Assembly (NCBI RefSeq): GCF_017115085.1
Contig: NZ_JABXKJ010000270.1
Location: 1-64,000 of the forward strand
Direction of reading: 5' to 3'
From: Nostoc sp. NMS7
GTDB lineage: Bacteria; Cyanobacteriota; Cyanobacteriia; Cyanobacteriales; Nostocaceae
Length of the DNA: 64,000 nucleotides
The translations under genes were made by a program, and so were the position numbers. Below the pieces are notes generated by a model. The model searched no databases. It was given only the letters and a program-made list of their open reading frames with translations, and was not told the DNA's origin. This document shows, in pieces, positions 1,853-25,393 of this stretch (positions are counted from its first letter, which is position 1; every line of letters begins with the position of its first letter).

Positions 1853-3220
1853 ATGAAATCTCTATTTTCGCAACATTCAAAACAAATAGAATTACCTCTA
1901 CAGTTAGTAACTTATCAAAATAAATTCGCTTTCATCGATCTATTTGCTGGTATTGGTGGATTTAGAATTGCTTTACAAAAACTAGGTGGTCAATGCTTAG
2001 GCTATTCTGAAATAGACAAACAAGCTATAAAAGTTTATCAACAAAATTTTATCAGCTACTTAAACAAAGATGAAATTGAATTAGGAGATATAACAAAAAT
2101 TAGTGAACTTCCTAATCATGTTGATATAGTAGTTGGTGGTGTTCCGTGTCAACCTTGGTCAGTCGCAGGTCGTTTAAAGGGATTTGAAGATCCAAGAGGA
2201 AAGTTATGGTTTGATGTAATTAGACTAGTCAATAAAAATAAACCTAAAGGCTTTATATTTGAAAATGTCAGTGGATTGGCAAGCCCGAAAAATATAGATA
2301 ACTTGGAACTGATTGTACATGAATTGGAAAGCATAGGATATTGTGTTAAATGGAAAGTCCTCAATGCTTATGATTTTGGTTTACCTCAAAATAGAGAGAG
2401 AGTTTTTATTGTTGGAATTAGAAATGATCTAGAAAAATGCCAAGAGTATAAATTTCCTATTCCTTTGAACATTCATCCAAAAGTTTTCGATATATTAGAT
2501 GATATTAAATCTGCAAAACTTATTGAAAAAGTCAAGCTAGATCGACATACCTTATTTAAAGGTATGATTCCACCATCAAGAACTCGATTTCAAAAAGATG
2601 ATGAATTAAATGATTTCTTCATTTTTTCTGATTTAAGAAATGGACACACAACAATTCATTCTTGGGATATTATAGAAACCAGTGATAGAGAAAAAATGAT
2701 CTGCTTAAGTCTTCTAAAAAATAGAAGAAGTAAAAAATATGGAGATAAAGATGGTAATCCCTTATCTTTTGATAATTTTAAACAGATAATATCTGATCTA
2801 GAGATAAATGAATTAAATGAATTAGTCGAAAAAGGAATATTCCGATTAACTGCTGATCATAAGTATGAATTTGTTAATTCTAAGAATATGACAGGTATTA
2901 ATGATATTTATAGAATTATTTTACCTACTGCTGATATTGTGCCAACTTTAACTGCTACTGGTGCTAAAGACTATATAGCTACAGTATCAATTCATGCTAG
3001 CGATCCACAGAAATATAAAAATATTTTCTTAGAAAAAATTTATAAACAGAAAAGATTTATACCAATTCTGGCAAAACACGCTTGTAAATTACAAGGTTTT
3101 CCTAGAAATTTTGAATATCACGAAAAAGATGATATTGCCAGAAAACAGTTTGGGAATGCTGTTCCTGTACCTGTTGTTGAGTATGTAGCTAAAGAATTGA
3201 TAAGTATTCTTGATATTTAA
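1853..3220 (+). CDS. DNA (cytosine-5-)-methyltransferase of a type II R-M system
   Basis: This 455-residue enzyme transfers a methyl group from SAM to C5 of cytosine in DNA. Motif I is FIDLFAGIGGF (28-37), the catalytic Cys99 lies in GGVPCQPWS (motif IV), motif VI is ENVSG (137-141), motif VIII is QNRERVFIVG (179-188), and motif X is FGNAVPVPVVEYVA near the C-terminus. The region between motifs VIII and IX is the variable target-recognition part. The gene is markedly AT-rich, has no GCGATCGC site, and converges on a nuclease gene whose stop lies one base away, so it is the protective half of an R-M pair, probably acquired horizontally. The target sequence cannot be read from the protein. Confidence 0.93.
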   Translation: MKSLFSQHSKQIELPLQLVTYQNKFAFIDLFAGIGGFRIALQKLGGQCLGYSEIDKQAIKVYQQNFISYLNKDEIELGDITKISELPNHVDIVVGGVPCQPWSVAGRLKGFEDPRGKLWFDVIRLVNKNKPKGFIFENVSGLASPKNIDNLELIVHELESIGYCVKWKVLNAYDFGLPQNRERVFIVGIRNDLEKCQEYKFPIPLNIHPKVFDILDDIKSAKLIEKVKLDRHTLFKGMIPPSRTRFQKDDELNDFFIFSDLRNGHTTIHSWDIIETSDREKMICLSLLKNRRSKKYGDKDGNPLSFDNFKQIISDLEINELNELVEKGIFRLTADHKYEFVNSKNMTGINDIYRIILPTADIVPTLTATGAKDYIATVSIHASDPQKYKNIFLEKIYKQKRFIPILAKHACKLQGFPRNFEYHEKDDIARKQFGNAVPVPVVEYVAKELISILDI

Positions 3221-3221
3221 A

Positions 3222-4031
3222 CTAATTTTGGTAAAAAATATCACTAAATTCGGCAGCAAAGTTTTCTTGTCCTAACTCAACAAAAAGTGCTTTTAATTGC
3301 TCAAATGTATTTTCAGTTCCAGAACAAAAATCCCAAAATTCATTTTCAACCCATATATCTTGGGCAATATCTAGAGGGCAGCTAGATAATTTACTTTTTT
3401 GGTGTTCATACCAAGATTTTTTAAAAGGATTAAAAGGAATAACAATACGAGCTTGTAACTTAGCATTTGTATCTTTAGCAAGTCTATAGGCGTACCACTG
3501 TAGCATTTGTTTGTTAAATCTAGATTGAAAATCGCCTAGATTTGACTGTGCAGTTTTTATATCAAAAAGATATTCAATTCCATCTTTAGATAAATGAATA
3601 TCAACTCCAGTTCCGGATGGAGGAGATTTATAGGTGTAGGCGGCAATGTCTTGGGGACTGATTTTTGCGGCAGCGTTTGTCAGCCTCTCTATACATTCTT
3701 TCGTTGAAATTTTCGTGTTTTTAGGCTTATTTTCACGTTCCTTAACCAATTTATCCAATTCATTCTGTAAAGCTTCAGGAAACTCAGTTGGAATTAATAT
3801 CTGCTTTGTGATGATTTGAAATCCATTGCTCTGAGCTAATATTTTAGCTATAGGTTCCCAAAAAGTTGTTCCTAGACTTGTTTCTAATCCACCTATTAGA
3901 GAACGTATTCGTCTTTCCTTAGGAAAAATTTCATCTAATATTTGGTAATTTTTGACTGCTTTATTCTTAAAAAATTTTCTAATTGAAATCTTAATATTTT
4001 CCTTTATTTTTTCTTTAAGATAGTCATCCAT
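3222..4031 (-). CDS. type II restriction endonuclease (probably TdeIII/MjaII-like)
   Basis: The 269-residue protein is encoded convergently to the C5-methyltransferase. A PD-(D/E)xK-type active site is visible: Asp144 in GTGVDIHL and the pair Asp157-Ile-Lys159 in YLFDIKTAQ, with a following LGDFQSRFNKQMLQWYAY helix. The overall look suggests the TdeIII family (GGNCC cutters), from memory of the family rather than from a search, so the specificity is tentative. Like its partner it is AT-rich and free of HIP1 sites. It is full length with an ATG start and no frameshifts, so the system may be active. Confidence 0.75.
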   Translation of the reverse strand: MDDYLKEKIKENIKISIRKFFKNKAVKNYQILDEIFPKERRIRSLIGGLETSLGTTFWEPIAKILAQSNGFQIITKQILIPTEFPEALQNELDKLVKERENKPKNTKISTKECIERLTNAAAKISPQDIAAYTYKSPPSGTGVDIHLSKDGIEYLFDIKTAQSNLGDFQSRFNKQMLQWYAYRLAKDTNAKLQARIVIPFNPFKKSWYEHQKSKLSSCPLDIAQDIWVENEFWDFCSGTENTFEQLKALFVELGQENFAAEFSDIFYQN

Positions 4032-10391: not shown

Positions 10392-10558
10392 GCGCTTTTT
10401 TTCCACGTTAGGTGATCGCAGCTACACCGTTATTTCCGCAGATTAGATACCCGATTTGGATCAAAATTTTATTTTACCTACGTTAGATAGCTTGAGAATC
10501 TTGGGAATACTGATCAAAGAACTCAATTGTCTAAACCGCAGAAAGCTTGGAGGAGCTT

Positions 10559-12148
10559 ATGAATCAATCATGGTATCCAGCTCATACATTCAATGGTGAC
10601 TCTAGTTGGTTCGGTGGTGTGCGCTCCCTATCCATAAATCCAAGCCGCCAAATTATTGCTTGTGGCAGCGATGACAATACAATTAGATTATGGGATCTAA
10701 ATAATGGTCAACTTTTGACCTATCCGTTTGAACATACAAAATCTGTTCGCTCCATTACCTTTACTCGCAAAGGAAATGGTTTGATTAGCGGTGGCGATGA
10801 TGCCACCATTAGAGTTTGGGATTTAAGAACATCTCAGGAATTATTAACTTTTAATACTCATTCTCAACCAGTGACGGCAGTTGCTGTGGTTCCAATTTAT
10901 GATTTTGTTGTAAGTGGAAGTGATGACTATACAGTTAAAATTTTTAGTTTGAAAGAAAGGAAGGAGATTCAAACCCTTCGAGGACATTCAAATTACGTGC
11001 AGTCTGTTTCTGTGAGTCCTGATGGTTCATTGATTGCGAGTGGTGGTTGCGATCAGAAAGTTAAGATTTGGAGAACCAACATACACGATGAGATTTTCTC
11101 ATTTTCAACCCATTCAAAAGATGTACGTGTAGTTGTATTTAGCCCTGATGGAAAAATTCTTGCAAGCAGTGATGATAATGGGGACATCATTCTGTGGGAT
11201 ATGCAAACTGGATTATCTAAATGCACTATTCAGGGGCATTCAAGTAGTGTGCGTAGTCTAGGTTTCAGTTCTAATGGTGAGTTTCTCGTAAGCGGTGGTG
11301 ATGACGGCTACGTCAAGATTTGGAATCTGACGACAGGTACTCTAGATTCCTCTTTCTGTGCTCACTCAGCAGGAGTTAGCTCAGTCGCTTTTTGTTTTAA
11401 TAATCAGGTACTTGTAAGTAGTAGCTGGGATAAGACAGTCAAACTTTGGGTTCTCGAAACCGCAATTCCTAAACCTTCAAAAATCGGTTTTTTTAAAGGA
11501 CTTTTTGGGAAAAAGCAGCCTGAACCTGAGCTTGTTTCATCTTTGCCAAATTTTATTCTTCAACAAGTTCAAGGAAATAGTGAAAAGCTAAACGAGTCTA
11601 TGTTTAGTTCCGTTGGTGCTAACTTTGAAACTGAGGTTTATAGCTTTTGTTGGGAAACATCTCAGCCTCCAGTCAAGAATCCTCAGTTAGGTTTGGAGGA
11701 TTGGGAGCGATTATTGAGAGACTGGAAACGCCAAGAAGAAGAGCGCAAGAAAGAACAACGTGCAAAAGAGAGACTTCGCTTGCGAGAGCAACGTTTGAGA
11801 TTAGAGAAACAGAAAGAAGAACGTCTCAACACAGAGCAGCAACTACAGGCAGAGAAACTAAGACAAGAACAGCGGCAGCAAGAGAAAAAACTCAAACAAG
11901 TAAATCAACTTGGTGCAGTGATTGAATTACTTAATACATCGCTTACGCAGCAAGAGGAAAAACCCAAACAAGTAAATCAAGACCGAACTACTAATAATTA
12001 TCGGGATAACAGTACATCTAACCAGCAACGGACTACGACTAACTTCTGGGGCAGTAATTCATCAAGTAACTCAAGTGGAAAAGTCTATGTTCAAGGTTAT
12101 CGTCGTAAGGATGGAACCCATGTTGAAAGACATTGGCGCAAAAAATAA
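10559..12148 (+). CDS. WD40 repeat protein with coiled coil and basic C-terminal motif
   Basis: I place the start at ATG 10559, preceded by GGAGGAG; a TTG 12 bases earlier is also in frame. About seven WD40 repeats fill residues 15-300 (DDNTIRLWDLNNG, DDATIRVWDL, DQKVKIW, DKTVKLWVLE), forming a beta-propeller. A linker follows (FFKGLFGKKQPEPE), then a long charged coiled coil (about 365-450, rich in R/E/K/Q), an Asn/Ser/Thr-rich stretch, and a C-terminal YVQGYRRKDGTHVERHWRKK tail. That tail resembles a small conserved motif (Y-V-x-G-Y-x-R-x-D-G-T) seen at the ends of unrelated bacterial proteins. No enzyme domain is present; a scaffold role is inferred. Confidence 0.8.
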   Translation: MNQSWYPAHTFNGDSSWFGGVRSLSINPSRQIIACGSDDNTIRLWDLNNGQLLTYPFEHTKSVRSITFTRKGNGLISGGDDATIRVWDLRTSQELLTFNTHSQPVTAVAVVPIYDFVVSGSDDYTVKIFSLKERKEIQTLRGHSNYVQSVSVSPDGSLIASGGCDQKVKIWRTNIHDEIFSFSTHSKDVRVVVFSPDGKILASSDDNGDIILWDMQTGLSKCTIQGHSSSVRSLGFSSNGEFLVSGGDDGYVKIWNLTTGTLDSSFCAHSAGVSSVAFCFNNQVLVSSSWDKTVKLWVLETAIPKPSKIGFFKGLFGKKQPEPELVSSLPNFILQQVQGNSEKLNESMFSSVGANFETEVYSFCWETSQPPVKNPQLGLEDWERLLRDWKRQEEERKKEQRAKERLRLREQRLRLEKQKEERLNTEQQLQAEKLRQEQRQQEKKLKQVNQLGAVIELLNTSLTQQEEKPKQVNQDRTTNNYRDNSTSNQQRTTTNFWGSNSSSNSSGKVYVQGYRRKDGTHVERHWRKK

Positions 12149-12843: not shown

Positions 12844-13095
12844 TTAACTGTAAGGACACTCTACCGGAAAAGTCCGCTTGGGCAAATCTGTTTCTCCAAC
12901 AGCTAATTCGACACCTTTAAGATAGGCTTTGCGAAGTGCTTCTTCAAGGTAGGGTTTTAAGCTAGGATTGTCTTCGAGTAGTTTAGCATTGCAGAATGCA
13001 GCATAAGAAGGGAATGGTTGACCGTTTTCATCTATCAACTGACGATATCCAGCGTGTTCCTCTATGCCCTTGAGCCAAGTTCGTAGATGTTTGAC
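12844..13095 (-). pseudogene. truncated gene fragment (unknown)
   Basis: On the minus strand a frame without a proper start reads VKHLRTWLKGIEEHAGYRQL then IDENGQPFPSYAAFC and ends PKRTFPVECPYS. The N-terminus merges in another frame with the helicase fragment upstream. It looks like the C-terminal part of a conserved protein often found on mobile DNA, but I cannot name it. Confidence 0.5.
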
Positions 13096-13612
13096 ACTGC
13101 TTGTTCATTACCAGAGTTACCTGATTGATTCCTGAGCTTTTCTTGTTGTTCCCTTAAAAAAGGTTCTTGTTCCACTTGAATGCTAGCAATACAATCTTGA
13201 AACAATTGATCATCTGGAGCGTAAATGTATCCCAGTTGGTGTTCATAAATTAGAGCGCCTGAACCACGATCAACACGCGCAGCCCGCGTTACCATTTGCT
13301 CAATCCAAGGAGTACTTCTAATATGGGTCAAACAAGCAATATGGGTTACAGCAGGTATATCTAAACCCTCGTATGCCATTGCCACTGTTACTAAAATATC
13401 TACAGAATTTTTACCGTGAGTTTTGAAACGTTCAATTGCTTTCTTTGCTTCTTTGGTATCATAACTCGTAGCGATAGCAGCCATAACATTCATGTTTTTA
13501 AGCCACTCAAGGAAACGCTTTGCATTAGAAATGTTGGCGGCTACTACCAGCATCCTGGCTCGTCCATTTGACTGTTTATGAGCTTCTGCTATCGAGAGCG
13601 ATCGCGCTTTGC
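13062..13612 (-). pseudogene. SF2 (DEAD/DEAH) helicase C-terminal fragment
   Basis: The minus-strand frame opens near 13612 and ends at 13062. It carries the second RecA-like domain of an SF2 helicase: MLVVAANISNAKRF, then motif V-like MAYEGLDIPAVTHIACL, and motif VI-like WIEQMVTRAARVDRG. The Walker A and DEAH half is absent upstream, where a TAG stop and HIP1-rich DNA lie. It is therefore a remnant, perhaps of a defence or mobile-element helicase. Confidence 0.75.
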
Positions 13613-17221: not shown

Positions 17222-17959
17222 ATGACTAACTTATTGCCTGAGATGGCAGAAATTTGGCAGCAAACTCTCAATTGGGAACCAACAGCCCAACAGCAAGCGC
17301 AATTCCAGAGACTTTATGAGTTAATCCTAGAAGGTAATCGCCAACTAAATTTAACTCGGATCACTGACTCCCACGAGTTTTGGGAAAAACATCTCTGGGA
17401 TTCTCTGCGAGGAATTGCGCCACAGGGGGAATTTATCCCGTCTTTTCAAGAAGCTGCATCTGTGATTGATATTGGCACGGGTGCAGGTTTTCCGGGTGTT
17501 CCAGTGACAATTATTGCACCTAATTGCAAAATTACTCTGATGGATTCAACCCGGAAAAAAATTACTTTTATCGACAATATATTAACTGAACTTGCCCTGA
17601 CTAATGCCAAAACTCTTGTTGGTAGGGCTGAAGAAATCGGTCAGCAACCCCAGCACCGACAAGCTTATGATATTGCCTTGATCCGCGCTGTTGGGACAGC
17701 TTCTGTTTGTGCAGAATATGCCTTACCATTACTCAAACGAAGTGGTTTAGCGATAATTTATCGTGGGAATTGGACAGAGGAAGAAACCACAGTTTTGCAA
17801 AATACTGTTAACCAGCTAGGTGGTGTGATTGAATTAATTGAAAAATTTACCACACCTATAAGTGATAGCATCCGTCATTGCCTTTATGTGCGTAAGGTAG
17901 CAAACACACCAGCTAATTTTCCCCGTGCTACAGGTGTACCTTCTCAAAACCCGCTTTGA
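17222..17959 (+). CDS. rsmG: 16S rRNA (guanine-N7) methyltransferase RsmG
   Basis: The 245-residue protein methylates N7 of G527 in 16S rRNA. The SAM site DIGTGAGFPGVP is at about residues 80-91, preceded by the family N-terminal pattern NRQLNLTRITDSHEFWEKHLWDS (split by helices) and followed by LMDSTRKKITFI. The start ATG at 17222 lies inside an AATGACT tandem repeat without a clear ribosome binding site; ATG 17243 (MAEIW) is an alternative. The C-terminal tail past about residue 228 is variable. Confidence 0.93.
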   Translation: MTNLLPEMAEIWQQTLNWEPTAQQQAQFQRLYELILEGNRQLNLTRITDSHEFWEKHLWDSLRGIAPQGEFIPSFQEAASVIDIGTGAGFPGVPVTIIAPNCKITLMDSTRKKITFIDNILTELALTNAKTLVGRAEEIGQQPQHRQAYDIALIRAVGTASVCAEYALPLLKRSGLAIIYRGNWTEEETTVLQNTVNQLGGVIELIEKFTTPISDSIRHCLYVRKVANTPANFPRATGVPSQNPL

Positions 17960-18084: not shown

Positions 18085-18350
18085 ATATTAGCCACTTCTG
18101 AGTTCAGAAGGGGAATCGTGAGGGTTTTAAGTGGAGCGATCGCTCCGACGAGCTACACCTACGCCCTTTTTACTCAACAATTGGTGTTAAAAGGTGCAAC
18201 TTCTGAGTTGAGATGGGGAATGGTGAGGCTTTGAAGTCAAGCGATCGCTCCGACGGGCTACACCTACGCCCTTTTTACTCGACAATTGGTGTTAAAAAGT
18301 GCAACTTCCGAGTTCAGAACCTCAATGGTAAAGCTTTGGGGTCGAGCGTA
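18085..18350. repeat. HIP1-containing repeat array upstream of the ROCO gene
   Basis: Three units share CAACTTCYGAGTTSAGA followed, with GGAATSGTGAGG spacers, by GCGATCGCTC and TTTTTACTCGACAATTGGTG. Two units (GCGAT at 18136-18140 and 18241-18245) carry a 21-nt element between GCGAT and CGCC. The same unit recurs at 21713-22120. Confidence 0.85.
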
Positions 18351-18766
18351 GACGCGCAACGGGTTGTCATTACCAACATTTTTCTAAATTTTGCGCTTCG
18401 TTGTCATCCCGCCTTGGAATAAATTCCCAGGCTAATAGCTAAAGTCCTCTCAAGAGGACTAAATATCAGATTTTAAGCGATGTAGATAGTTATAACTCTG
18501 TGAAAGTGAAAATTTCAGTCCACTTGAGTGGACTTGAGCTATTAGCCCCGAACTTCAGTTCTGGGCGGGATTGCCTGTCAGCGCGACATTCTGACTATTA
18601 CAAAAATGTGGGTAATCACAAGACTTGAGATCACGAGTAGACACGTAGCAGCTTTGATCGCACATTGCCTCAATTGCAATCCAGGCTAAATTATTATTAG
18701 CTCAATTTCTCTGCTGCGCGTCCAAGCAGCAACTCCTCGTCAGGCATCGCCTCTATAAAACCCGAA
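18351..18766. other. intergenic region before the ROCO gene
   Basis: It contains a hairpin-rich MITE-like element (18429-18552) and otherwise no gene. The ROCO promoter would lie in the final 200 bases; no strong ribosome binding site precedes ATG 18767. Confidence 0.5.
18429..18552. mobile_element. MITE-like element with GGCTAATAGCT ends
   Basis: The left end AGGCTAATAGCTAAAGTCCT pairs with the right end GGACTTGAGCTATTAGCC. Internal hairpins are GTCCTCTCAAGAGGAC and GTCCACTTGAGTGGAC. A half copy lies at 37085-37117, and a related hairpin, CAGTCCTCTAAAAGAGGA, at 63888-63910. Confidence 0.7.
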
Positions 18767-21682
18767 ATGACTAACGAAGAACTGCTGCAAATTATTGAAC
18801 AAGCTGCCAGAGACAAGGTGACAGAATTAGACCTTTCTGGGGAAGGTTTAACAACGCTGCCACGGGAAATTGTCCAACTCACCAACCTGCAATCCCTCGA
18901 CCTCAGCATTAATCGACTGAGCAGTCTGCCACCGGAAATTGTCCAACTCACCAACCTGCAATCCCTCTACCTCACCGACAATCAACTGAGCAGTCTGCCA
19001 CCGGAAATTGTCCAACTCACCAACCTACAATCCCTCAACCTCAGCATTAATCGACTGAGCAGTCTGCCACCGGAAATTGTCCAACTCACCAACCTGCGAA
19101 CCCTCTACCTCTTCAGTAATCAACTGAGCAGTCTGCCACCGGAAATTGTCCAACTCACCAACCTGCAATCCCTCGATCTCAGCATTAATCGACTGAGCAG
19201 TCTGCCACCGGAAATTGTCCAACTCACCAACCTGCAATCCCTCGACCTCAGCGACAATCAACTGAGCAGTCTGCCACCGGAAATTGGCCAACTCACCAAC
19301 CTGCAATCCCTTGCTCTCCGCAGTAATCAACTGAGCAGTCTGCCACCGGAAATTGTCCAACTCACCAACCTGCAATCCCTCGCTCTCCGCAGTAATCAAC
19401 TGAGCAGTCTGCCAAGAGAAATCAGGCAACTATCAAAGCTGAAAAAGCTGGATATTTGTAGAAATCCAGTCCCTATTCCACCTGAGATTTTGGGGTCGAA
19501 GAAGTTATATGAAGATCCGGGTGATGTGAATGAAATTCTCGATTTCTATTTTCGGGTGCAAGACCCAGCCGAAACAGAACCCTTCTACGAAGCAAAATTC
19601 TTAATTATTGGCGAAGGAGGGGCCGGTAAAACCTCTTTAGCCAAGAAAATTGCAGATGAAACCTACAAACTCCAGCCAGAAGAGAAATCAACCCAAGGCA
19701 TTGAAGTGATCCAGTGGCACTTTACACAGCCAAATGGCAAAGATTTTCGCGTCAACATCTGGGATTTTGGCGGTCAGGAAATCTACCACCAAACCCATCA
19801 GTTTTTCCTCAGCAAGCGATCGCTCTATGCTTTAGTTGCCGACACTCGCAAAGAAAACACCGATTTTTACTGGTGGCTGAAGGTTGTCGAACTCTTGAGT
19901 GACAAAAGTCCAGTTATCATCATCAAAAACGAAAAACAAGACCGTGATTGCCCAGTTAATGAGCGCCAGTTACGAGGAGAATTTAGCAACCTGAAGGAAA
20001 CACTGGCAACCAATTTAGATACTAATCGCGGTTTAACAGAGATTAAAGACGCGATTCAGCTATACATCAGCAGACTTGACCACGTTGGTACACCTTTACC
20101 AAAACTCTGGATAAGAGTCAGAGCCGCATTAGAGAACGATTCTCGAAATTACATTAGCTTTGAAGAATACTCTACCATTTGCCGAGGTAATAAATTAACA
20201 GACCGTAAAGATATGCAGCGCTTGAGCAACTATCTTCATGACCTCGGCGTTTGCCTGCATTTTCAAGACGATTCTACACTGAAACACTACGTCATCCTCA
20301 AACCCGAATGGGGAACTACTGCCGTCTACAAAGTTTTGGACAATGACAATGTTAAGAAAAAGTTGGGTTGTTTTACCAAAGACGCCCTCAAAGATATTTG
20401 GAAAAGCGGCGAATATGCAGATATGCGAGATGAACTACTGCAATTAATGATGCAGTTCAAGCTTTGCTACGAAATTCCCGGTCGTCCTGCTACTTATATT
20501 GCGCCTCAATTGCTCTCTATTGAAAAAGCTGATTATACCTGGGGCGATCGCAATAATCTCATCCTGCGCTACACCTATGACTTTATGCCCAAAGGTATCC
20601 TCACCCGCTTTATTGTCGAGACGCACCCTTGGATTGAACAGCAAAAACTCGTTTGGAAAACAGGTGTTGTTCTCAACAAAGACCAAACTCGTGCAGAAGT
20701 CATTGAAAACTACAATCAACGGGAAATTAAAATCCGTGTGACCGGAAAGCGCAAAAAAGAATTGATGGCTGTTGTCACCCATGAACTGGAAAAAATCCAC
20801 AACTCTTACGAACGTTTGGAATATCAAACCCTAGTTCCGTGTAACTGTGAGACTTGCAAAAACCTGCCGACACCTCATTCCTATTCTCTGGACTCACTCA
20901 AAAAACGCTTGGATGCTAGCCGCTACAAGATTGAGTGCGAGAACAGCTATGAAATGGTAGATATCCGCAGGTTAATTGATGATGTCATGTTCCAACCCGC
21001 TAGAGAAGATGGGGAAATCAACCCCCAAGTTGCACAGTTGCAAAGCGAACTGGAGCAAAAGCGAGATGAATCATTGACGCATCGGTTACGAGATAGCAAA
21101 ATCAATAGTCAATCTGTAATGAAGTTCGAGAAGGAAATCTTCATCTCCTATGCTTGGGGTAGAGAAAGTGAGCAATTTGTCAACCAACTAGATCAGACTT
21201 TGCAGGCTAAAGGGATCACAATCATTCGGGACAAACGCGATTTGGGCTACAAAGGACTAATTAAACCCTTCATGGAACGGATTGGACGCGGTAAATGTGC
21301 GATCGCGGTTATTAGTGACAAGTATTTAAAGTCTGAGAATTGTATGTTTGAGCTAGTGCAAATTGCTAAAAACGGGGAATTTTATGATCGTATTTTCCCG
21401 ATTGTGTTACCGGATGCCCAAATTTATAAGCCTGTTGCAAGACTTAAATATATTAAGCATTGGGAAGAAGAAATTAAAGATTTAGACGAAGAGATGAAAG
21501 GGGTTTCCGCAGCTAATTTACAGGGATTTCGTGAAAAAATTGACCAGTACACCGAGATTCGCAAAATGATCGCCGAACTCACCAACCTGCTAACAGATAT
21601 GAACACGTTGACTTCTGATATTCACAGCGAATCAGACTTTGAGGACTTGATTAATGCGATCGCAGTCCGTCTAGATGAGTAA
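18767..21682 (+). CDS. LRR-Roc-COR-TIR (ROCO family) protein
   Basis: This 971-residue multidomain protein has nine 23-residue leucine-rich repeats (31-237, consensus LPPEIVQLTNLQSLxLxxNx), a Roc GTPase (about 275-440; P-loop GEGGAGKT at 282-289, switch II WDFGGQE, base-recognition IIIKNEKQD), a COR region (about 450-700), a short coiled coil (about 755-780) and a C-terminal TIR domain (about 788-930; EIFISYAWG, then NCMFEL with Glu862 at the place of the TIR NADase catalytic Glu). Eight of the LRRs are almost identical at DNA level, so the array has expanded or homogenised recently. TIR domains attached to sensor and NTPase modules occur in bacterial immunity and cell-death proteins; a similar role here is inference. 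No helper gene is adjacent. Confidence 0.92.
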   Translation: MTNEELLQIIEQAARDKVTELDLSGEGLTTLPREIVQLTNLQSLDLSINRLSSLPPEIVQLTNLQSLYLTDNQLSSLPPEIVQLTNLQSLNLSINRLSSLPPEIVQLTNLRTLYLFSNQLSSLPPEIVQLTNLQSLDLSINRLSSLPPEIVQLTNLQSLDLSDNQLSSLPPEIGQLTNLQSLALRSNQLSSLPPEIVQLTNLQSLALRSNQLSSLPREIRQLSKLKKLDICRNPVPIPPEILGSKKLYEDPGDVNEILDFYFRVQDPAETEPFYEAKFLIIGEGGAGKTSLAKKIADETYKLQPEEKSTQGIEVIQWHFTQPNGKDFRVNIWDFGGQEIYHQTHQFFLSKRSLYALVADTRKENTDFYWWLKVVELLSDKSPVIIIKNEKQDRDCPVNERQLRGEFSNLKETLATNLDTNRGLTEIKDAIQLYISRLDHVGTPLPKLWIRVRAALENDSRNYISFEEYSTICRGNKLTDRKDMQRLSNYLHDLGVCLHFQDDSTLKHYVILKPEWGTTAVYKVLDNDNVKKKLGCFTKDALKDIWKSGEYADMRDELLQLMMQFKLCYEIPGRPATYIAPQLLSIEKADYTWGDRNNLILRYTYDFMPKGILTRFIVETHPWIEQQKLVWKTGVVLNKDQTRAEVIENYNQREIKIRVTGKRKKELMAVVTHELEKIHNSYERLEYQTLVPCNCETCKNLPTPHSYSLDSLKKRLDASRYKIECENSYEMVDIRRLIDDVMFQPAREDGEINPQVAQLQSELEQKRDESLTHRLRDSKINSQSVMKFEKEIFISYAWGRESEQFVNQLDQTLQAKGITIIRDKRDLGYKGLIKPFMERIGRGKCAIAVISDKYLKSENCMFELVQIAKNGEFYDRIFPIVLPDAQIYKPVARLKYIKHWEEEIKDLDEEMKGVSAANLQGFREKIDQYTEIRKMIAELTNLLTDMNTLTSDIHSESDFEDLINAIAVRLDE
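18857..19477 (+). repeat. 69-bp tandem repeats encoding the LRRs
   Basis: Nine units of 69 bp follow one another. CTGCCACCGGAAATTGTCCA and CTCACCAACCTGCAATCCCT recur nearly unchanged from unit to unit; variation is concentrated in the codons for the LxLxxN strand, the usual ligand-facing positions. The first and ninth units diverge most. Confidence 0.95.
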
Positions 21683-21712
21683 AACTAGACTATTGCTGAG
21701 GTTGATAGGTGG

Positions 21713-22120
21713 AGCGATCGCCCTTTTTACTCGACAATTTGTGTTATGAGGTGCAAGCTTCAAGTTCAAAACTCAAATGATTAGGGTCAAAGCTGCAAGT
21801 CCGAGGGTTAAAGGTGCAACTTCGAGGATCAAAGGTGCAACTTCCGAGTTCAGAGGTCGAGCGATCGCTCTTTTAGCTTGACAACTCATGTTCAAAGGTG
21901 CAACTTCCGAGTTCAGAGGTTGAGCGATCGCTCTTTTAGCTTGACAACTCATGTTCAAAGATGCAACCTCCGAGTCCAGAGGTCGAGCGATCGCTCTTTT
22001 CACTCGACAACTCATGTTCAAAGATGCAACCTCCGAGTCCAGAGGTCGAGCGATGCCTGCGGCGGGCTGCGCCAACGCTCTTTTCACTCGACAACTCGTG
22101 TTCCAATTACGAATTAGTCT
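21713..22120. repeat. HIP1-containing repeat array downstream of the ROCO gene
   Basis: Units of about 63 bp contain GCGATCGCTCTTTT, TTGACAACTCATGTTCAAAG and TGCAACTTCCGAGTTCAGAG. HIP1 cores start at 21861, 21923, 21987 and (interrupted) 22050. The last copy is split by a 21-nt element at 22055-22075. It is the same family as 18085-18350. Confidence 0.88.
22055..22075. repeat. 21-nt element inserted in the last HIP1 site of the array
   Basis: The sequence GAGCGAT + 21 nt + CGCTC compares with GAGCGATCGCTC in the neighbouring units. The insert (GCCTGCGGCGGGCTGCGC...) is the reverse-complement relative of the 13767-13787 element. Confidence 0.88.
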
Positions 22121-22140
22121 TACTGCCAAAATTTTATCGT

Positions 22141-23184
22141 TTATGTTTTCTGCTGAGATAAATCCATCAAGTTTGCCAGCTTGTAAACTACCCGCGCTCC
22201 AACATTACCATCCCACTCCCCATCACCGACTTCGCAGATATCAAAGCCAATAATTTTTTTCCCACTATTCACCAATTCTCGGAACAGACAAAAAGTTTGC
22301 TCTAATTCCAACCCACCGGGAACAGGAGTACCTGTACTCGGACAGAGTTTTGGATCTAGACCATCTGCATCAAAGCTAATGTAAACATACTCAGGTAAAT
22401 GACTGATAATTTCTCGGCACAAATCAATCCAAGTTGTTCCAGAGTAAAGCTTTTGTTTAATCGCTGGGTCATAATAAGGAATAATGCGATCGCTAGATTG
22501 GTCAATCATTTCCACTTCATCATGACTAATATCACGCAAACCCACTTGCACTAACTTAGAAATTTGCGGTATTTTCATCGCATTAAACATAATAGACGCA
22601 TGGGAAAACTCAAATCCCTCATAGGCATCGCGTAAATCTGCGTGGGCATCAATGTGCAAAATGCCATAGTTTTGGTAGTTAGCCGCTAATGCTTGGAAAT
22701 AACCTAAAGGCGAACTATGATCTCCACCAATGACTGCAACTCGCTTACCATGATTAATTGCTTGTTGACAATTTTCAAATAGCCATTTATTCACCTGTTC
22801 ACCAGCCTGATTAATTTCTGTCAGCACAGGTGTTAAATCTGGTGTATCTGAGAGTTGTTTACCTTGGGCTAATCGCTCAATAATTTTTGCTGCTAAGACG
22901 CGATAGTATGTATTCTTCTCTACAATATCCTGGGGAATTTCCACCATAAAAATTCCCTGCTTCCAACCATCAGGATTATCAAAATCGAACAAATCTAGTT
23001 GAGTCGAAGCATCGAGAATTCGCTGTGGGGCATTAGCAGTGCCTGCACCATAGGAAACAGTAACTTCCCACGGCACACCAAAGACAACCAACTTTGCAGA
23101 CTCGTAATCGCCAGGCAAACCTAAGAGGTTGCCATTTACTTCACCTACGCCGCTAGGATTGTAGTCTTTTAATTGATTACTCAT
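22141..23184 (-). CDS. ureohydrolase (agmatinase/arginase superfamily)
   Basis: A 347-residue metal-dependent ureohydrolase. The binuclear metal motifs are visible: GGDHSSPLG, HIDAHADLRDAYEGFEFSHAS (read as two parts) and SFDADGLDP. I start at ATG 23184 (MSNQLKDYNPSGVGEVNG), because the 22 extra upstream residues are Arg-rich and unconserved. Members cleave agmatine, arginine or guanidine; cyanobacteria also carry a guanidine hydrolase of this superfamily, and the substrate cannot be fixed by eye. The 3' end lies 21 bases from the repeat array downstream of the ROCO gene. Confidence 0.85.
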   Translation of the reverse strand: MSNQLKDYNPSGVGEVNGNLLGLPGDYESAKLVVFGVPWEVTVSYGAGTANAPQRILDASTQLDLFDFDNPDGWKQGIFMVEIPQDIVEKNTYYRVLAAKIIERLAQGKQLSDTPDLTPVLTEINQAGEQVNKWLFENCQQAINHGKRVAVIGGDHSSPLGYFQALAANYQNYGILHIDAHADLRDAYEGFEFSHASIMFNAMKIPQISKLVQVGLRDISHDEVEMIDQSSDRIIPYYDPAIKQKLYSGTTWIDLCREIISHLPEYVYISFDADGLDPKLCPSTGTPVPGGLELEQTFCLFRELVNSGKKIIGFDICEVGDGEWDGNVGARVVYKLANLMDLSQQKT

Positions 23185-23299
23185 TGAGTATCTTCTGGAT
23201 TTATGTGGATAGACAGCACGCCGCCTAGTGGACATCTGCATTGTAATCAAAATTTTTCACAGGCGGTAAATTACTATTTTCCAAATACACAACTCCAAA

Positions 23300-23358
23300 C
23301 TCCTGTACAGACGCGATTAATCGCGTCTCTCCAAACAGACACGATTAATCGCGTCTCT
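23300..23358. repeat. two copies of an AGACGCGATTAATCGCGTCT palindrome
   Basis: A 20-nt palindrome occurs at 23309-23328 and, with one change, at 23337-23356, overlapping the 3' end of the FAD monooxygenase gene. A third copy is at 41467-41490, preceded by the same CTGTAC. Confidence 0.9.
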
Positions 23359-24940
23359 TCTGCTCAATTAATTGATCGAAATTGGGACAATACACCTGTT
23401 CTCCATATTCTTGCCACTCTTTGTCTGACGAGTAGGGTGAAGATTTTAATGTTGCCTCTTGGACGTATGCCATCAATGGGCGACGAAGACACTCATATTT
23501 CTCGAAAGCTGTGGCTATAGCTTGCGTATTATCCCAGTTATTCTCCTCGGCAATTTTAGCGATTAGTGTTGCAATCAAGAGTGCATCTTCAAATCCTTGA
23601 TTAGCTCCTTGAGCCATGAAGGGAGGCATTCCATGTGCGGCATCGCCAACTAATACGATTCGCCCTAAACTCCAGGCTGGTGGAATTTTGACAGCATCAG
23701 CTTCTGTATTGGCGTCAATTGTGCTAGGAACTTGTACAGAATCTGAAATAGTAGCGCGGTGAATATAGTATGGGCGTTGCTGCATCTTCGCAGGAGGAGA
23801 TATACGTACTAATTGCTTAAGTGCATCAGGAAAGCCTGCCTTCTCCAACTCCTGGATAGCTAAGTCAATTAAAGAGTTTTCAGACTTTTCTTGCAACAAG
23901 TCCAAAGGTAAAGCAAGATGTATCACGTACCTTAGTTCACCAATTGATCTGCGAAATAAAATCATCCTGATGTTATTTATACAAACAGAATTTCCAGATA
24001 TTTCATCATTAGTGATTGTTACAATTGGTGAGTCTTGAAAGAAATATTCTTCTAATTTCGTCCACAGTTCAGTTGTTATGTCGCCTATTTCTCTACAAAA
24101 TATAGCTGCAAACCCGGAGTATTCAGGTCGAGCAAAATCATGGTATTGACTATCTGTGTAAAGCAGTCTACGAACTGTAGAATTAATCCCGTCTGCTGCA
24201 ACAATTAGTTTAGCTCGAATCGATTTTGTTGCTAATTCTTGGGGGGCAGCATCCGATTTCTGGGGCTGTGTATCATTCTGTTTCTGCGCATCTGTCCAAT
24301 AAGCATAGGGGTTGGCTTCAGTGTCAGATAAGCAATCTATGCGCACAGAATCGTTTTCCGGCTCATTGACAATATTAATACAACGGTGATTAGCTTTAAC
24401 TTGGTCTTCGGGAAGTAGCTGTCTGAGGGTTGTCTGCAAATTGTACCAAGAAATTGACACTCGACCCTCGCCATAATCTTTAAACCAGTCATCAAAACTA
24501 AGCGAGATTGACCGAATTATCTGTCCCTGCAAATTTTTGTAAGTCCATTGGGGTGAAGTCTTTGAAGGTTGTTGCTTTTGAGTAGGTTCGACAGTTTTCT
24601 GGTCATTAGACTGCTGGGGATTCAATAAACCAAGTCCAGTTTTTTTGACTTCTTCGTAGGCGTTAGGATCTAAATATTTGAGAGCCTTTAATCCATTTGG
24701 GAGAAGATCCAACCCCTGGCCAACTTCACGAAAGGCGCGAGTTTGATCGATGACAAGCACATTTTCAATACCACGTTTACGTAAGCCGATAGCAGTTGCT
24801 AACCCAATAGGCCCAGCGCCAACCACTACAACATCATAGATTTCTTGCGGAGCAGAAAATGAGACAACAGAGCCAGTTAAGGTATCAGCTTTGGTTGATC
24901 TGTCTGTATATGTATGAGGACTTGATTTAGTTTCTAGCAT
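23345..24940 (-). CDS. FAD-dependent monooxygenase (UbiH/PHBH-like)
   Basis: A 531-residue flavoprotein from ATG 24940 (MLETKSS); 12 more residues are possible upstream. The FAD-binding GxGxxG is VVGAGPIGLATAIGLRKRG (about 38-56), the DG motif is IVAADGINSTVRRLL (about 245-260), and the GD motif is LVGDAAHGMPPFMAQGANQG (about 435-455). It hydroxylates an aromatic or isoprenoid substrate with NAD(P)H and O2; the substrate is unknown. A low-complexity linker (about 110-130, rich in Gln/Lys/Thr) interrupts the usual spacing. The last codons run into the palindromic repeat. Confidence 0.85.
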   Translation of the reverse strand: MLETKSSPHTYTDRSTKADTLTGSVVSFSAPQEIYDVVVVGAGPIGLATAIGLRKRGIENVLVIDQTRAFREVGQGLDLLPNGLKALKYLDPNAYEEVKKTGLGLLNPQQSNDQKTVEPTQKQQPSKTSPQWTYKNLQGQIIRSISLSFDDWFKDYGEGRVSISWYNLQTTLRQLLPEDQVKANHRCINIVNEPENDSVRIDCLSDTEANPYAYWTDAQKQNDTQPQKSDAAPQELATKSIRAKLIVAADGINSTVRRLLYTDSQYHDFARPEYSGFAAIFCREIGDITTELWTKLEEYFFQDSPIVTITNDEISGNSVCINNIRMILFRRSIGELRYVIHLALPLDLLQEKSENSLIDLAIQELEKAGFPDALKQLVRISPPAKMQQRPYYIHRATISDSVQVPSTIDANTEADAVKIPPAWSLGRIVLVGDAAHGMPPFMAQGANQGFEDALLIATLIAKIAEENNWDNTQAIATAFEKYECLRRPLMAYVQEATLKSSPYSSDKEWQEYGEQVYCPNFDQLIEQKRRD

Positions 24941-25393
24941 ATTTATACACAGTAATCTGAGATAGAAGCTGGGCAATGTGGAAAGCTATTAGCTATCAAC
25001 TAAGATACCATAGCGATAACGAGCTACTCCCCAATTAACATAAGCCTGGGCATTACTGGGGTTAAGTCTGATGACTTGGGAAAAATCACGCACTGCACCA
25101 AAGTCATCTCCATTTTGTCCACAAACACAACCCCGGTTAAAGTACGCTCTATTATCGTTAGCATTGAGACGAATTGCGAGATTAAAGTCAAGCATAGCTG
25201 CTTGGGTATCTTGCAAGACAAAATGCGCCAAACCTCGGTCATTGTAGATATCTGCAAGCAGTAAGCTGCTTATTTGGGGGATTTGAGTTAGAGCTAAATT
25301 AAAGTCAACAATTGCCTCAAAGTCTTTCCCATCCCCAGCATGGGCTAGCCCTCGGTTGTAGTAAGCTCAAAAATCATCGGGTTTAAGTGCGAT

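Follow-up and report, generated by a model that had tools for sequence, protein, structure and literature searches.

A Nostoc leucine-rich-repeat Roco protein ending in a TIR domain, with relatives that differ in sensor surface and exchange the terminal domain in the manner of immune receptors

The DNA analysed here (the window) is a stretch of 64,000 nt of Nostoc sp. NMS7 (contig NZ_JABXKJ010000270.1, positions 1 to 64,000; assembly GCF_017115085.1, 8.29 Mb). It carries a gene for a single protein that combines leucine-rich repeats (LRRs), a Roc GTPase, a COR region and a C-terminal TIR domain (Table 1). Among the relatives of this protein, both the sensor surface and the terminal domain change in the manner of immune receptors: a variable concave LRR face overlies a constant framework, the C-terminal domain has been exchanged repeatedly, and the gene is present or absent at fixed sites. 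The protein is more likely than not an intracellular conflict receptor complete in itself, operating like a nucleotide-binding LRR receptor (NLR); this interpretation is plausible and strengthened by the evolution of the family, and the kind is already known.

All five Pfam domain matches exceed their curated cut-offs (LRR_8 for the LRR part, 3.6e-33), in the order LRR, Roc, COR and TIR that had been read from the sequence alone; the domain architecture is real and chance is ruled out. A Roc domain followed by COR-A and COR-B (PF08477, PF16095, PF25497) makes this a Roco protein, and its Roc-COR part matches the solved Roco structures 4wnr (6.9e-59), which we take to be Methanosarcina barkeri Roco2, and 3dpu (2.8e-48). 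The P-loop GEGGAGKT is found at residues 282–289, where it had been placed, and a DFGGQE motif begins at residue 333; with the P-loop and DxxG motifs intact, GTPase activity and GTP-dependent switching between dimer and monomer are predicted. The protein had also been described as a possible NLR-like immune or cell-death sensor. By membership it is not an NLR or STAND protein, since its switch is a Ras-like Roc GTPase and neither NACHT nor NB-ARC is among the 24 Pfam families matched at E values up to 1; the likeness stands in the receptor-like evolution of sensor and effector, and in the plant immune TIRs that top the fold search. No protein kinase family is among the Pfam matches of the 971 aa protein, which is thus not a Roco kinase of the LRRK type. 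Because the full-length structure model (pLDDT 79.0) has a pTM of 0.50, the arrangement of the domains relative to one another was left uninterpreted. Helices comparable to the C-terminal extension of the TIR domain are also present in a TIR-only model.

In the DNA, the LRR array is a 69 bp tandem repeat (18857–19414, 8.1 copies), and its eight units agree in nearly all codons, silent positions included, with differences mainly at unit positions 8, 10, 11, 13 and 22. The LRRs were compared among the 29 of 63 proteins (window included) with a Roc-COR identity of at least 79%, counting only units that fit a strict pattern. These proteins hold 237 units, from 0 (the broken copy L073; L labels denote loci and G labels genomes) to 23 per protein, the counts for L073 and for L053, L058, L060, L062 and L077 (contig ends) being lower bounds. 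Pooled over the set, the most variable unit positions are 10, 11, 8 and 6 (entropy 3.03, 2.72, 2.23 and 2.16), followed by 19 (2.10) and 22 (1.69). Among the 1365 sets of four that can be drawn from the 15 non-fixed positions, one reaches the entropy sum of positions 6/8/10/11; in the window's array alone, five do. The full-length model has short strands at unit positions 6–8, so that the variable residues lie on or beside the strands of the concave face. There are 150 distinct four-residue face signatures; runs of signatures are common to L063 and L064, and less so to L074 and L075, with no other long common run seen by eye in the same listing.

Within arrays (1175 pairs), the proportions of nonsynonymous (pN) and synonymous (pS) differences are 0.342 and 0.444 for the face, and 0.031 and 0.195 for the framework. 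Face pN is thus 0.77 of its own pS, and in 20 of the 22 arrays that have at least five units and were compared singly it is higher than the pS of the remaining 19 positions (the exceptions are L077 and L078). The Roc-COR part, for comparison, gives pN 0.066 and pS 0.296 (231 pairs, 22 sequences). These are uncorrected counts over pairs with common ancestry, in which silent change is inflated in multiply hit codons, and the face variation is a pattern, not a codon-model test. Copy number varies and identical units recur within arrays; with framework repeats so close to identity, unequal exchange could rearrange the units and quickly make new faces. Seven matches to a 24-base pattern of the framework, with 3 mismatches allowed, are present in the assembly, all within the Roco gene, giving no repeat donor elsewhere in the genome; diversity-generating retroelements were not searched for.

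The C-terminal domain was typed in 63 Roc-COR proteins by BLAST and author-chosen motifs, with the fragment L066 (alignment <380 aa) left out. Nine types were distinguished: the TIR of the window (26 proteins), a second TIR (21), a membrane type (7), a GDN-motif type (3), CHAT (2) and four singletons, one of which ('split') is a Roco with its TIR on the next open reading frame (ORF). TIR_2 and CHAT were confirmed by Pfam, which recognised none of the other five types tested. The Roc-COR tree requires 16 changes of type (minimum possible 8; shuffled mean 31.3), at least five of them for the window's TIR type being enforced by starred branches, in a quick tree where 16 of 60 inner branches are open and a long-branch warning applies to L107, its partner L099 and L111. 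The alignment of long Roco sequences covered 26 of 28, plus the window. In the TIR domain, L099 and L107 share 85% and 80% identity with the window; in Roc-COR they share 33% and 34%. Types switch around or after the helical linker (residues 744–787), and one genome (G134) holds four of them (TIR-A, TIR-B, CHAT and TM1). Exchange of the C-terminal domain among relatives, with several effectors in one genome, agrees with the AP-GTPase class discussed below.

Several loci depart from the usual arrangement. At L076 (3480–7388), Roco and TIR are on adjacent ORFs, and the TIR protein has a part of its own before the match, which begins at residue 259. L226 (2265–4106) encodes 614 aa with a Roco-like N-terminus bearing LRRs and the second TIR type, without a Roc-COR match. 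The Roco gene adjoins a T4 gp19-like tail tube gene and a large ORF at L052 (494–4101) and L082 (7869–11662); by Pfam the L052 pair gives gp19 (2.8e-40) and no family for the large ORF, and the L082 pair matches it by BLAST.

Glu 862 lies within CMFEL (residues 859–863) and had been proposed to occupy the NADase position. It aligns with E100 of RUN1, presumably a catalytic residue, and is invariant across 54 TIR sequences (53 of the 80 TIR loci, and the window). The nearest solved TIRs, by sequence and by fold, are the plant immune TIRs RPP1, Roq1, RUN1 and RPV1. The profile searches and TIR modelling called for in the sequence-only reading thus recovered Roc, COR and TIR together with a matching fold, the active site being assessed by alignment and fold match only. 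Given this fold and the aligned catalytic-type glutamate, the domain is probably NAD-destroying. A scan of one genome per species (84,980 species) found 133 relatives of the TIR subfamily; the hosts of the best 80 are Cyanobacteria and Chloroflexi and, by record title, Desulfobacterales, Gemmatimonadetes, a Thiotrichaceae and a Deltaproteobacterium. A Roc-COR match, in some cases partial, is present in 32 of these 80 proteins. Ten non-Roco representatives carry, by Pfam, EAD1 with TPR, EAD7 (30.5 bits, cut-off 32), AAA_35, NB-ARC with TPR, a caspase domain, a kinase with GUN4, a Cap17-like domain, a TPR with weak ATPase matches only and, in two cases, TIR alone. Conflict systems have been described with the same companions, effector-associated domains (EADs) and STAND NTPases (PMC8195603; this and the other papers cited by such numbers are represented here by parts of their text).

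The gene lies between rsmG and an agmatinase-like gene, neither of which appears from its sequence to be a helper, in line with the earlier remark that no helper or regulator gene is adjacent. The relative G175 has an identical gene order without the Roco gene, its flanking blocks being 89% and 93% identical to the window. At L128–L130 the gene is absent between the neighbours that flank Roco in L057 and L068, while a remnant copy is found at L216 and a broken one at L073. Site counts rest on 72 listed Roco places, lower-identity matches having been left out, and are lower bounds: of the 50 genomes that have the agmatinase-like gene, at least 17 show a listed Roco within 10 kb (about 0.2 expected if independent), and common descent accounts for part of this co-location.

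A second slot, formed by a hemJ-like gene, a peptidoglycan-binding gene and nadE, accounts for 16 of the 63 Roco proteins, counting those that lie within 10 kb of either of the latter two genes. The window's TIR type is found in 15 of these 16, versus 11 of the 47 elsewhere (Fisher p 8e-7). The nadE product is NAD+ synthetase (PF02540). Since nadE was not in the fetched flanks of any of the 11 Roco loci outside Nostoc, the site is regarded as an insertion slot, and a functional link to NAD+ synthetase as the less favoured reading. In the window's own genome nadE is located at a contig end. In some genomes the slot contains TIR-TPR genes, small TIR genes or a TIR remnant; TIR genes were seen there at L054, L055, L058, L059, L063–L066, L072, L073, L099, L107, L214, L216, L220, L224 and L226.

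GTP brings CtRoco of Chlorobium tepidum into an open form: the LRR moves away through about 135 degrees and the dimer comes apart, and the extended form is stabilised by a nanobody that sits in the curvature of the LRR (PMC11052575). A ligand on the variable face of the window protein would, by analogy, open its switch and set the TIR free. An invader-derived ligand, most likely a phage protein, would bind the concave face of the LRR horseshoe and shift the LRR off Roc-COR, so that the GTPase could change state; this would free or cluster the TIR domains, which would then cleave NAD+ by means of Glu 862, and the infected filament cell would be stopped or killed. A swap of the C-terminal cassette would alter the response. 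More tentatively, these proteins may form a diversifying receptor repertoire of a Nostoc type, in which the switch is kept, near-identical LRR units are reshuffled into largely different faces, and TIR, CHAT and membrane effectors are exchanged. Such a repertoire would be a bacterial counterpart of the polymorphic immune receptors of fungi and plants, built on a Roc GTPase and diversified by repeat recombination within the gene.

Two points weigh against a conflict receptor of this kind. The route from a monomerising switch to TIR assembly is the weakest link of the mechanism; and the window gene and many relatives occupy fixed chromosomal slots beside housekeeping genes, not defence islands. 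Homologues in housekeeping contexts only had been named in advance as evidence against an immune role, and this came true in part, although genes are gained and lost at these slots, as a defence role would allow. The TIR domain might instead make a signal molecule (a cyclic ADP-ribose isomer or a plant-like nucleotide) or scaffold a partner, the killing being done by a separate effector encoded elsewhere. Plant TIR products act as signals, the nearest TIR structures are those of plants, and some proteins with a TIR of this subfamily have EAD-type adaptor domains; but the adjacent genes do not look like partners, and other Roco proteins of the genus carry CHAT or apparent membrane segments at the TIR position, read as direct effectors, so that we consider a separate effector somewhat unlikely.

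That the protein senses endogenous or social cues rather than phages (filament self/non-self, symbiosis, developmental or stress death) would fit the higher frequency of Roco genes in the window's family (COR-A in 75 of 145 genomes) than in a phylum-wide sample (COR-B in 35 of 292), a comparison of different Pfam models. It would also fit the similar diversification of repeats in fungal NLRs and brown-algal ROCO proteins (PMC4986451, PMC11378527), the fungal repeats belonging to genes associated with non-self recognition (PMC4986451). Effector exchange, and a gene that comes and goes at fixed sites, would, however, suit conflict with invaders better than development, and this alternative is judged unlikely. 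The LRR pattern could also be neutral, if unequal crossing-over and gene conversion homogenised the framework and the exposed positions were merely unconstrained, as the differing copy numbers, the identical units within arrays and a face pN below its own pS might suggest. Homogenisation should wipe out the face differences too, and face pN exceeds the pS of the remaining positions in nearly all arrays; neutrality is therefore improbable. The housekeeping genes that adjoin the Roco gene, and the cell-biological roles of Roco proteins elsewhere, would suit an ordinary regulatory GTPase scaffold without a conflict role, but a scaffold that is patchy at its sites, exchanges effectors and is broken or reduced to a remnant in relatives would be very surprising.

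Plant TIR-NLRs (RPP1, Roq1, RUN1, RPV1) are like the window protein in TIR fold, aligned glutamate and LRR sensor; they have an NB-ARC ATPase switch and the TIR first, whereas the window protein has a Roc GTPase and the TIR last. Thoeris ThsB and SpbK, the latter an NADase (PMC12847820), share the TIR domain but lack the LRR and Roc-COR sensor-switch, and a ThsA-like gene is not adjacent to the Roco gene, as Thoeris would require. Fungal NLRs resemble the present family in highly conserved repeats, copy-number variation, concave-face changes and modular effectors, and differ in having WD, ANK or TPR repeats and STAND switches, LRR motifs not being found there (PMC4986451). CtRoco (3dpu, 6hlu, 8r4b) and M. 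barkeri Roco2 have the same Roc-COR core, with LRRs in CtRoco, but are described as consisting of the LRR-Roc-COR core and nothing more (PMC11052575, PMC6337361), and the prokaryotic Roco proteins known when PMC6337361 appeared belonged to the LRR-RocCOR group; the window protein ends in a TIR. Closest is the prokaryotic LRR-AP-GTPase-COR class, predicted in 2021 by Kaur, Iyer, Burroughs and Aravind as a counter-invader system, with rapidly evolving LRRs, at least 24 kinds of C-terminal domain including TIR and caspase, and several copies per genome with different effectors (PMC8195603). The architecture is alike throughout (N-terminal LRR, Roc-COR, effector-type C-terminus), and anti-invader action is a prediction in that paper too; added here are the location of LRR variation within the unit, effector exchange on the tree of one genus, and occupied and empty sites. 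A literature search of partial coverage, most subscription journals lying outside it, brought up no bacterial Roco that had been tested experimentally in phage defence, nor any account of LRR variation confined to the face in these proteins.

Tandem intergenic repeats flank the gene at 18094–18319 and 21829–22054 (105 bp and 63 bp). The FAD-binding oxidoreductase beyond the agmatinase-like gene has a close orthologue in 19 of 53 same-genus genomes (one partial), at least 12 of the 19 within 10 kb of a listed Roco; a link to Roco was rejected, as Roco also adjoins the agmatinase-like gene without the oxidoreductase, and a shared variable region suffices. Nor is a defence island supported at this locus: among 10 other window proteins compared with PADLOC, only a type II restriction-modification pair about 15 kb away stands out (the 2001–4000 block within its region has a G+C content of 30.5%), the other matches being weak or of generic ATPase similarity, and no Thoeris name is among the matches listed for these and the Roco protein. 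Also in the window are a 533 aa WD40-repeat protein about 6.6 kb upstream of the Roco gene (10547–12148) and a 163 aa helicase-like fragment (13062–13553), weakly similar to RadD and type I restriction subunits and possibly a remnant. A Roc-COR query of viral contigs, which detects close relatives only, gave four pattern matches, none of them a relative, and virus-borne copies were discarded as a candidate.

Table 1. Coordinates of the Roco gene, its parts and other features of the window.
Feature	Position	Strand	Basis or remark
LRR-Roc-COR-TIR gene	18767..21682	+	971 aa, ATG start, uninterrupted ORF
Eight near-identical 23 aa LRR units, residues 38–221	18878..19429	+	Repeats in protein
Roc GTPase domain, residues 277–389	19595..19933	+	PF08477, 4.1e-25; alignable to solved Roco proteins
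P-loop GEGGAGKT, residues 282–289	19610..19633	+	Sequence motif
COR-A domain, residues 445–583	20099..20515	+	PF16095, 5.2e-50
COR-B domain, residues 596–739	20552..20983	+	PF25497, 7.9e-51
Helical linker, residues 744–787	20996..21127	+	Low-confidence helix in structure model
TIR_2 match, residues 791–901	21137..21469	+	PF13676, 3.2e-14; model and fold search
Codon of Glu 862	21350..21352	+	Aligned with RUN1 E100
Helical extension of TIR	21431..21676	+	Modelled helices 889–911, 921–944, 955–970
Segment between two aligned blocks, 3448 bp	18675..22122	.	About 160 bp at corresponding place in relative G175
rsmG	17222–17959	+	Upstream neighbour
Agmatinase-like gene	22141–23250	-	Convergent, downstream; agmatinase model 140 bits, below cut-off 174
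FAD-binding oxidoreductase	23345–24976		Downstream, beyond agmatinase-like gene
Type II restriction-modification pair	1853–4031		Cytosine-5 methyltransferase TIGR00675, 7.4e-78, and adjoining weak REase_II match

Bacterial relatives of LRRK2 serve as structural models, and an NLR-like receptor function, if true, would supply their biological role. It would also couple LRR sensors to a Roc GTPase in bacterial immunity, and would provide natural sets of proteins in which related switches carry different sensors and effectors, making ligand choice and output separable. The concave-face pattern sharpens the notion of rapidly evolving LRRs into a specific prediction of the residues that bind the trigger.
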